Shown here in pieces: positions 47,969-63,139 of a DNA stretch of 64,000 nucleotides. The DNA is from Ferroplasma sp. (lineage in GTDB: Archaea > Thermoplasmatota > Thermoplasmata > Thermoplasmatales > Thermoplasmataceae), in contig NZ_CP133597.1 in the NCBI RefSeq assembly GCF_031200575.1, positions 124,001 through 188,000 of the forward strand. The letters are read 5' to 3'. The number at the start of each line of letters is the position of its first letter. Position 1 is the stretch's first letter. The notes under the pieces were generated by a model, which was given only the letters and a program-made list of their open reading frames with translations, did no database searches and was not told the DNA's origin. The position numbers were made by a program, and so were the translations under genes.

Positions 47969-48019
47969 TTATATGGGAAATATTTATTCATATGCCGGGA
48001 ATATTTGCTCGGAAAAAAT

Positions 48020-49435
48020 ATGGGCGATAAAGATAATGGAAATATAAGCACAATAAATCAGGCACTGGATAATGCCACCGGAAAGTTCCATTTCAAGACC
48101 TTTCTGACAGCAGGCATGGGATTTTTTACAGATGCCTATGATTTATTTATTATCGGAACTGTGGTTGCAATACTTCCCATGGTTGGCTGGATTCTCACCA
48201 CAACAGATGTTGCATTGATATCATCGATATCCTTAATAGCAGCCGTTTTGGGGGCACTTGCCTTCGGTAGGTTACTTGACTATCTCGGAAGAAAGGCAGT
48301 TTACGGGCTTGAACTGGTATTGCTGGTTGTGGGTGCATTAGGAAGCGCATTCCTATCATTCAGGAATGTAGATGCACTTATATTTTGGAGATTTTTACTT
48401 GGAATTGGAATAGGAGGAGATTACGCAACGTCCTCTGTAATAATGAGTGAATACTCAAATATAAAATCCAGGGGTAAATACGTGGGCAGCATACTTTCCA
48501 TGCAGAGCATAGGTCTGGTGGTATCATCCCTGCTTGCACTGCTATTCCTGCTGAACACAAAAATCATACCCCTGGTAGATGCCTGGAAGATACTTCTTGC
48601 TGTTGGTGCTATACCGGCTGCAGCTGTAATATATTACAGAAGAAAGATGCCTGAACCACCAAGATTCACCGTTGCAAAGGGCAGGGCTGATGAGGCGGCC
48701 GCGAATCTCAAATCCTACACAGGAATTGATGTGAAGATGGATAAAAAGAAGCAAAAGATAAATGCTCCCTAGTACACACTTTTTACTGACAGGAAATTCC
48801 TGATAACCCTTATAGGTACAGCAGGTGCATGGTTTTTAATGGACTGGGCTTTCTATGGGAATTCCATAATGTCCCATGATATATTCAAAACAATCATAAC
48901 CCAGACAGGCCTTTCCGGGCTCATAATATCAACAGAATATGCAGCATTGATATTTACGGTAGCTGCACTCCCTGGATACTGGCTTGCAACATTCACGCTG
49001 GATAAAATCGGGAGAAAGCCCATACAGGTAATAGGATTCACAATGCTGGCAGTGTCCTATATGATCCTTGCGGCATTTCCGATTCTGGATACGCCAGGAT
49101 ATGTTGCAGAGTTCCTGATAGTGTACGGAATGAGCTATTTCTTTATGATGTTCGGCCCGAATGTAACAACCTTTGTATATCCGCCAGAGGTGTTCCCGGC
49201 AACAACCAGGGGCCTGGGTACAGGAATTTCAGCTGCAGGGGCAAAAACAGGGGCATTTATTGGTACATTTGTTGATGCGTTTATAATAGTGAGTGGTCTT
49301 TCTGCGTTAATGAGCGTGCTTACTGTTTTCTCCATAGCGGCTTTAATGATAACTGTACTATGCCTGCCCGAGACAAAGGGAAGGGCAGTGGAGGAGATAT
49401 CAAGGGAAAAAGAATACACACAGACGTTACAGTGA
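48020..49435 (+). pseudogene. PHS-type phosphate:H+ symporter interrupted by an amber codon
   Basis: Major facilitator of the Pho84-like PHS family, 471 codons if read through. The single defect is TAG at 48770-48772 (codon 251). The frame continues without further change to 49435. The intact paralogue at 61733 has Trp there: KAPWYILFKD against NAP-stop-YTLFTD here, so TGG to TAG explains it. Family motifs flank the break: GMGFFTDAYDLFIIG, GIGIGGDYATSSVIMSEYSN before, DWAFYGNSIM and FGPNVTTFVYPPEVFP after. The decay is recent or the lesion is strain-specific or a sequencing error. A TTG at 48005 is an unlikely start. Confidence 0.9.
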
Positions 49436-49445
49436 ATTTTAATTT

Positions 49446-50339
49446 TTACAGTAATTTTTTAAAAATTTTTTCTATACCTATTATTTTATCGTTTTTATAC
49501 TGGAATATATTAACATTGCATAAAGATTCTACATAATTTTTGAATTTTAATGTATCCGGTGTCTTACCGTATAGCCTACCGTATTCATTACGCAATGTTT
49601 CCATTTTTATTTCTATTAGAGATTTAGAGACCATGCATAAGGAATAGTATGAATATGCAGTTCTGAGATAAGGCTTTACTGAAGAGATATCTGATACATA
49701 ACCGGTTTTGCTCTTTATTATATATGCGAATAAATTCTCTATGTTTCCATCTGCAATGGAATTGAATTCCGGCCCCCGTTCTATTATGCATGCATTGTAT
49801 TTGTATTCATATTTAAATATAGAAAGGTCACTGATTTCATTAAAATATTTCAGGCGTTTCTTGTCATCGGAACCTGTGGAAACAAGTATGATTTTGCCCT
49901 TATCCAGAAGCTCCCTAAGAATCTCCATTACCGGAGTCATGGAAAGCATTATTTCATGAATCCCTGAAAGCTCCTCCGCTATGGCTTCCATGATCGCCAT
50001 TTCACCTGTTCTTATGGTGTTGTATTTTACTTCTTCCAGCATTTTTAGTGCAGTGTTTCTATCTGGCCCAGTAAATGATGCTTTGCCATCAACCTGCTCT
50101 GCGGATATGAAAAATATATGGCTATACTTTCTTATTAACATATAACCATCCAGCAGCTCAGAATAATAAACATCAACATAGGAATGCAATTTACCTATGG
50201 TTTCAATGGAATCTGGATCAATGGAAAGTGAGCTGCCATAGGTTTCAGAAATGAAAAGCCCCATCAGCCTCACAAGTGTTTGGATGTCATCGTTTCCTGC
50301 ATCATATTTACGGGTCACAGATCCCCTGGCTTCAAGCAT
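49446..50339 (-). CDS. hypothetical protein, 297 residues
   Basis: Not recognised. A soluble alpha/beta protein of 297 residues. A central ILRELLDKGKIILVSTGSDDKKRLKYF segment has the look of a strand-turn-helix nucleotide or substrate loop but matches no named motif. N- and C-terminal thirds are mostly helical with many Tyr and Lys. Only a few Cys are present, not arranged as a metal site. GGTGTG precedes the ATG 10 nt after the upstream gene, so it is the second gene of a two-gene operon. Its end faces the broken phosphate transporter 10 nt away. Confidence 0.6.
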   Translation of the reverse strand: MLEARGSVTRKYDAGNDDIQTLVRLMGLFISETYGSSLSIDPDSIETIGKLHSYVDVYYSELLDGYMLIRKYSHIFFISAEQVDGKASFTGPDRNTALKMLEEVKYNTIRTGEMAIMEAIAEELSGIHEIMLSMTPVMEILRELLDKGKIILVSTGSDDKKRLKYFNEISDLSIFKYEYKYNACIIERGPEFNSIADGNIENLFAYIIKSKTGYVSDISSVKPYLRTAYSYYSLCMVSKSLIEIKMETLRNEYGRLYGKTPDTLKFKNYVESLCNVNIFQYKNDKIIGIEKIFKKLL

Positions 50340-61732: not shown

Positions 61733-63139
61733 ATGAGTTCAGATATAGATAGATCTATGGATATGGCAAAATCGTCCAGATTTCACTATAAGGTATTATT
61801 CATTTCAGGGCTTGGTTTTTTCACTGATGCATATGATCTGTTTATTATAGGTGTGGTTATACTTTTGCTTCCATACGCAGGCTGGCACAGCATCGGTGTA
61901 TTTTATGAGGGGTTATTAACATCCACAGCTCTTCTGGCAGCCGTTATAGGTGCTGTAGTTTTCGGGCGCCTTCTCGACTACTCTGGCAGGAAGGCCATAT
62001 ATGGGCTTGAACTAATTGCCCTGATAGCAGGTGCCCTGGGAAGTGCATTTCTAACTCCTGTTAATAATATATTCTTACTCATATTCTGGAGGTTTCTACT
62101 TGGCATAGGTATAGGGGGTGATTATGCAACCAGTTCAACGATAATGACAGAATATTCCAATACAATGAACAGGGGGAAATTTGTTGGTATGGTATTTTCT
62201 ATGCAGAGTTTCGGGTTGATAGCGGGGCCCCTCATATCCATGGCATTTCTCTCCAATGCGGTATCGCCCTACATAACATGGCGTCTTTTACTGGCCATAG
62301 GTGCACTTCCGGCAATTATCGTAATCTATTTCAGGAGAAAAATGCCTGAACCACCCAGATATACAGCAGATGTAAGGGGTGATTATGCCCAGGCAGCTCA
62401 GAATTTGAAAAATTTTACGGGCATAAAATCTGATGCAAAACAGGGGAAAACTGTAAAGGCCCCCTGGTATATTCTTTTCAAGGACAGAAAATTCCTTTTA
62501 ACACTTATAGGCACAGCAGGAGCATGGTTTTTAATGGACTGGGCCTTTTATGGGAATTCTATAATGTCCAACAGCATACTTTCCTTTCTTGTTCCCGCAT
62601 CGATTTCCGGCATACATGCAATTATCCTTACAAATGAATATTCTGCCATGATATTCGGTATTGCAGCTTTTCCAGGATACTGGATTGCGGCATTTACAAT
62701 AGACAGGATAGGGAGAAAGCCTGTGCAGGTTGCAGGATTTGCAATGATGGCAATTTCATTCGCAACCATATCATTAGTAAGTTTCCTTACTACATATAAA
62801 TTCCTGGACTATTTTCTATTAATATATGGAATAAGCTATTTCTTCATAATGTTCGGCCCCAATGTGACAACGTTTGTATATCCACCGGAGGTATTTCCCA
62901 TTTCCACAAGGGGGCTTGGAACTGGCATCTCCTCTGCTGGTGGGAAAACGGGGGCATTTATAGGCACATTTGCCGACACCATCATACTATCTGTAACCGG
63001 GATTCACTTTCTCTTGGGGATACTTGCGATTATTGCATTCGCCGGGATGATAATAACAATCCTGTTGCTTCCTGAAACAAAGAGGAAAGATCTGGGAGAA
63101 ATATCCAGAGAGGGTGAATTTACAAGTACGGGAAAGTGA
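61733..63139 (+). CDS. PHS-type phosphate:H+ symporter (MFS), intact
   Basis: Major facilitator of 468 residues, 12 membrane segments, in the Pho84-like PHS group. The N-terminal GLGFFTDAYDLFIIG is the family signature, with FGRLLDYSGRKAIYG after helix 2, GIGIGGDYATSSTIMTEYSN in helix 4 and FGPNVTTFVYPPEVFP in the second half. KAPWYILFKD near residue 243 contains the Trp that is a stop codon in the paralogue at 48020. It has its own promoter with TATATAG repeats. Phosphate is the likely substrate by family; other organic anions are possible. Confidence 0.88.
   Translation: MSSDIDRSMDMAKSSRFHYKVLFISGLGFFTDAYDLFIIGVVILLLPYAGWHSIGVFYEGLLTSTALLAAVIGAVVFGRLLDYSGRKAIYGLELIALIAGALGSAFLTPVNNIFLLIFWRFLLGIGIGGDYATSSTIMTEYSNTMNRGKFVGMVFSMQSFGLIAGPLISMAFLSNAVSPYITWRLLLAIGALPAIIVIYFRRKMPEPPRYTADVRGDYAQAAQNLKNFTGIKSDAKQGKTVKAPWYILFKDRKFLLTLIGTAGAWFLMDWAFYGNSIMSNSILSFLVPASISGIHAIILTNEYSAMIFGIAAFPGYWIAAFTIDRIGRKPVQVAGFAMMAISFATISLVSFLTTYKFLDYFLLIYGISYFFIMFGPNVTTFVYPPEVFPISTRGLGTGISSAGGKTGAFIGTFADTIILSVTGIHFLLGILAIIAFAGMIITILLLPETKRKDLGEISREGEFTSTGK

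Follow-up and report, generated by a model that had tools for sequence, protein, structure and literature searches.

The window analysed here, a stretch of 64,000 nucleotides, covers positions 124001-188000 of a Ferroplasma sp. genome assembled as one contig (1,859,113 bases; assembly 99.33% complete), and it contains an MFS transporter gene of the PHS type that is interrupted by one stop codon (48020..49435, + strand; 471 codons read through). The reading frame runs from an ATG at 48020 to a TGA at 49433-49435 (471 residues when the stop is counted as a residue), and its sole internal stop is an in-frame TAG at codon 251, counted from that ATG (48770..48772, + strand; 48771 is position 172771 of the contig). 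An earlier note on this DNA had described an amber codon at this position, where an intact paralogue 13 kb away has Trp, in a gene with no other lesion; the frame and the TGG codon of the paralogue are confirmed, and no second lesion was found in the 471 codons.

The N-terminal part of the gene (48020..48772, + strand) is still translatable and encodes 250 aa with helices 1-6, and the C-terminal part past the stop (48773..49435, + strand) is intact in sequence, comprises helices 7-12 and holds W271, D275, Y279, N381, and K409. A mechanical list of open reading frames splits the gene in two. The first frame, 48005-48772, begins at a TTG at 48005, and the second (48839..49435, + strand; 198 aa) begins at the first possible restart ATG (M274), which lies in predicted helix 7. 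A random arrangement of open reading frames is impossible, because some 470 codons that are 75-93% identical to those of relatives flank a single stop. The next gene in the 3' direction (49446-50339) is on the other strand, so that polar effects of the stop are not expected.

The transporter and the consequence of its truncation

We claim, as a prediction from sequence, that the interrupted gene and its paralogue encode PHS-type phosphate:H+ symporters. The best NCBIfam model for both is TIGR00887 (phosphate:H+ symporter), scoring 315.6 bits with the read-through gene and 323.1 bits with the paralogue, and since both scores stay under the curated cut-off (610.3) the assignment is to the PHS type and not to the equivalog. 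The read-through protein has Pfam matches to PF00083 and PF07690, a phmmer search against solved structures gives phosphate transporters as its top six matches, and Foldseek ranks 1-12 are all PiPT (7sp5) or OsPHT1;11 (9kmq, 9kou). However, SV2A is level with PiPT in VIA-align (Z 42.1 and 41.0), and the fold alone therefore does not single out phosphate transporters. The window gene has the GGDY and W-x3-D-x3-Y motifs in common with PiPT of Piriformospora indica and rice PHT1;11, although these eukaryotic proteins are only 29-34% identical, longer, and uninterrupted. D134, Y135, and D275 are invariant and K409 is nearly invariant in a 20-sequence alignment. Residues were mapped to Pho84 and PiPT by alignment to solved relatives, K409 by its motif. 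The phosphate and proton residues named in one published account are D178, Y179, D358, and K492 in Pho84 and D149, Y150, D324, and K459 in PiPT, and PiPT D324/Pho84 Asp358, which is aligned with D275, is rated there as crucial for transport (PMC5159500).

An AlphaFold2 model of the read-through protein (mean pLDDT 87.9) has 12 helices and places codon 251 in the linker that joins helix 6 (185-207) to helix 7 (258-283). D275 and K409 both come after the stop, and the truncated product of 250 residues would consist of helices 1-6 only, without W271, D275, Y279, N381, or K409. As the whole C-terminal bundle is missing, this half is almost certainly not a working transporter, and transporter function would be lost with it.

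Private nature and age of the stop

The paralogue (61733..63139, + strand; 468 aa) is intact, is 59% identical to the interrupted gene, and is its best match elsewhere in the genome, with TGG at the aligned position. No second full copy of the interrupted gene was found in the genome, this paralogue being the nearest other gene. A second TAG-bearing paralogue that came up in the genome search (L005) was rejected, as the TAG is that gene's own terminal stop. Codon alignment gives TGG at codon 251 in all nine orthologues, which are 75-93% identical. Full-length counterparts at least 75% identical and free of internal stops are present in eight of the nine other genomes of the genus, and the ninth, which is 80% complete and fragmented, has no counterpart at the 75% level. 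The counterpart in Ferroplasma acidarmanus Fer1 is 80% identical, and closer ones are found in metagenome-assembled genomes labelled Thermoplasmata. Among the 36 places listed with at least 52% identity in 61 genomes, an internal stop occurs in two, the window gene and one in G011 (E-plasma). The latter (L024:1741-1743, contig KI542675.1) was rejected as a shared stop, for it is an in-frame TAG of its own at another place, codon 81 of the match. Position 251 is Ile, Met, or Leu in three distant relatives (L019, L020, L021), and so Trp is kept in the genus and in many relatives but is not universal.

The pair of transporter genes has equivalents in the genus. Counterparts of both window paralogues occur in G004 without interruption, at a distance of about 15.5 kb from each other, whereas the window copy has the stop at codon 251. 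The counterparts in F. acidiphilum Y are probably FAD_1738 and FAD_1753, to judge from their spacing (PMC5473848). G005, of the same genus, has two close copies (G005:C11:6112-7518 and G005:C5:152690-154081; 83% and 75% identical to the window gene), so that transporter copy number varies within the genus.

With changes polarised by two outgroups, the window's own branch shows 29 synonymous and 8 nonsynonymous codon changes in the N-terminal part and 40 and 6 in the C-terminal part, and the sister branch shows 16 and 5 and 19 and 3, respectively. Pairwise dN/dS against the sister, the nearest relative, is 0.089 for the N-terminal part and 0.041 for the C-terminal part. A simple Poisson bound, for which synonymous sites are partly saturated, puts any unconstrained period of the C-terminal part at 3-7% of the branch at most. 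Selection on the C-terminal half is thus undiminished, and the stop would therefore date from about the final 3-7% of that branch. This recency fits the proposal of the earlier note that the stop is very recent, polymorphic, or an artefact. Undiminished selection is consistent with either a very recent loss or a retained function and does not separate the two.

Other interrupted genes in the genome

A search of the genome with Pfam MFS_1 gave 72 matched stretches, which by our own count represent about 64 loci, and besides the window gene two MFS genes are otherwise intact but carry one private stop each (one TAA, one TAG). In the second gene of this kind (1,233,043-1,234,434, - strand; L135:540-1934) codon 236, which belongs to the central linker, is TAA (at about 1,233,727-1,233,729), and an in-frame GTG comes six codons after it. 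At the threshold chosen it has counterparts in two of 60 other genomes, G005 (93% identical, with TCC) and G026 (72% identical), both of which are without the stop. The third gene (980,702-981,979, + strand; L175) has as codon 42 a TAG (980,825-980,827) that corresponds to TCG in G006, and its dN/dS against G006 after the stop is 0.012, so that this stop must be very fresh. G005 has a private TAG in the same gene at codon 98, which is Trp in the window genome; a conserved TAG was considered and rejected, the two stops being at codons 98 and 42. A fourth MFS locus, near 374 kb, is more decayed, with an MFS match that is divided between two frames. MFS matches with internal stops are also listed for G004 (L174) and G005 (L173).

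Private stops are thus found in three of about 64 MFS loci versus none of about 113 other compared genes (Fisher p 0.046, with rough counts), which is weak evidence of an excess in MFS genes. A 545-kb sample also contains other clear in-frame stops, which by eye were assigned to transposase-like genes. Two of these, L207:7180 and L209:6494 (both + strand), have an in-frame TAA with sequence that otherwise continues, as seen by eye in translation. As two further MFS genes carry single private stops, fresh nonsense alleles seem to hit the large redundant MFS family, and the interrupted MFS genes look like ordinary loss within it.

Origin of the stop and its alternatives

Recent pseudogenes with a single nonsense mutation occur in prokaryotes, with one premature stop, no further decay, and a paralogue present. 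The window gene is like them, with nothing distinctive found here: its premature stop is absent from the orthologues and there is no other lesion. We consider it likely that the stop is a very recent nonsense mutation, possibly at the level of the strain or culture, in a PHS-type symporter gene whose loss is tolerated by virtue of the paralogue. We propose that a single base substitution, which would be TGG to TAG to judge from the relatives, created the amber stop very recently and perhaps only in this strain or culture, that translation would now end after helix 6 to yield the 250-residue half, and that the cell presumably tolerates the loss through the intact, 59% identical paralogue, as the earlier note had thought possible. 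Both the mutational cause and the tolerance are what we infer from these comparisons.

Over 11 years in culture, F. acidiphilum Y accumulated 116 substitutions, of which 115 were GC to AT, a rate described by its authors as outstanding (PMC5473848). The change from TGG to TAG belongs to the GC-to-AT class, and the other two stops do not clearly do so (TCG to TAG is C to A). A single GC-to-AT change would turn 935 of the 37,729 codons in a local sample (221 of these being TGG) into a stop, which suggests that some 2-3% of GC-to-AT mutations in genes make stops, and an occasional fresh nonsense allele is therefore to be expected in any such culture. On the gene's own branch, however, 51 AT-to-GC changes outnumber 26 GC-to-AT changes, so that long-term change here does not follow the spectrum published for the laboratory culture.

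The alternative that survives best is an error of sequencing or consensus at the level of the base, with the genome truly having TGG at codon 251, and we regard this as unlikely. A lone wrong base would look just like what is seen, a sole lesion in the gene and among 116 genes compared, with no relaxed selection, and the two further MFS genes, each of them pristine but for a single private stop, would also fit scattered base errors; three near-pristine genes with single stops could hint at such errors. The state of the assembly argues the other way. The nearest relative, G006, is represented by a contig that is 89-92% identical in DNA and collinear with most of 136 kb of the host genome. Of the G006 open reading frames with a counterpart at least 75% identical in these 136 kb, 115 of 116 are intact, the exception being the window gene, and in the reverse comparison 115 of 117 are intact, the two exceptions having slightly different gene ends. 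No frameshifted gene was found among those compared with G006, which gives no sign of an indel-prone assembly, and since the window gene is the only interrupted one of 116 compared over 121 kb, the one-contig assembly is not error-ridden. A miscall at a modified motif of the CCWGG type was rejected, as differences from CCTGG to CCTAG show no excess and number one in 121,138 aligned bases. (CTAG itself occurs at about half its Markov expectation, 62 vs 124, in G000:C1:104001-240000.) Random errors would also not favour MFS genes, yet all three interrupted genes other than transposases belong to this family, a weak point given its p of about 0.05. We conclude that the nonsense mutation is considerably more likely to be real than a base error. 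Of the artefact put forward in the earlier note, what stands is that a single wrong base could have produced the stop, but with one disrupted gene of 116 and no excess of the CCTGG-to-CCTAG change it is less likely than was implied.

Readthrough of UAG, which would yield the full transporter, is very improbable. It could account for the intact and constrained sequence of the C-terminal half, since selection on that half is also expected if the full protein is still made, and in this respect the data alone do not prove loss. The codon-42 TAG gene, with its dN/dS of 0.012 after the TAG, and the separate TAG of G005 at a Trp codon of the same gene also speak for it, as does the decoding of TAG as pyrrolysine described in publications on Thermoplasmata-related methanogens (PMC4153887, PMC3941956). 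Against it, no relative aligned has a stop at codon 251, and with the TAGs of the other gene private to each genome there is no conserved recoding site. No pyrrolysyl-tRNA synthetase was found in the genome, the best PylS match being 33.1 bits against a cut-off of 178.15, in a search in which some match also came up in 13 of 14 control genomes, only one of them exceeding the cut-off. Among the tRNAs read (44 Rfam matches and an intron-bearing tRNA-Trp) none has a CUA anticodon, although a tRNA with an unusual intron could escape detection, as that tRNA-Trp did in the Rfam search. Anticodons were read by ARAGORN at 29 of 30 loci, at 13 of 13 loci, and in the window's own tRNA, and by eye in two intron-bearing tRNAs, a tRNA-Tyr with anticodon GTA at L103:1501-1600 and the tRNA-Trp with anticodon CCA on the minus strand of L131. 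The tRNA-Trp and tRNA-Tyr genes both escaped ARAGORN as run. TAG is moreover a normal terminator, ending 12 of 117 open reading frames with a counterpart (window gene included), and there is no excess of TAG among candidate in-frame stops in coding-like sequence over 545 kb (4 of 27 vs 34 of 153 in the background, in a coding-potential scan in which two of the loci had been picked because of their stops); the figure for 480 kb of G004 is two TAG among 18 stops inside coding-like sequence. With an ordinary terminator, decoding machinery that was not found, and no in-frame excess, reassignment or general suppression of TAG was rejected, and the view of the earlier note that readthrough is without support holds.

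Least probable of all is a split transporter, in which the six helices on either side of the stop would be translated separately and the two halves would then reassemble. In its favour, the stop of the window gene separates the two bundles at their linker, the second MFS gene is likewise cut by its TAA in the central linker, with the GTG six codons on opening its whole C-terminal half, and membrane protein halves can reassemble, natural cases being described as rare but existing (PMC3464245). However, M274, which lies midway along helix 7, is the first in-frame ATG, GTG, or TTG after the stop of the window gene, so that a second product would lack part of this helix. The AGGTG that lies 11 bases before the ATG of M274 is unchanged in the uninterrupted L039 and is therefore probably just coding sequence. 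Chance alone could well place two of three stops in a linker, and the remaining one, at codon 42, is outside the inter-bundle linker. The 1,233-kb gene is the better candidate for a split transporter. A wider proposal, that both MFS transporters cut in the inter-bundle linker still work, by way of low-level readthrough or reassembling halves, is most plausible for the 1,233-kb gene and is in our estimation a long shot; if true, it would show transporters at the very start of gene fission. Proof of readthrough or of a split transporter would make the gene a clean archaeal example of the first step towards recoding or gene fission.

Most likely, then, the stop is an ordinary, very recent loss-of-function mutation and not an unusual reading of the gene, which is a probable pseudogene or strain-level null allele. 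Its relevance is mainly one of annotation, in that models of phosphate uptake in this organism should treat the gene as a probable pseudogene or strain-level null allele. The several fresh single-stop MFS alleles in one genome suggest that this large family readily loses members, whether in nature or in culture.
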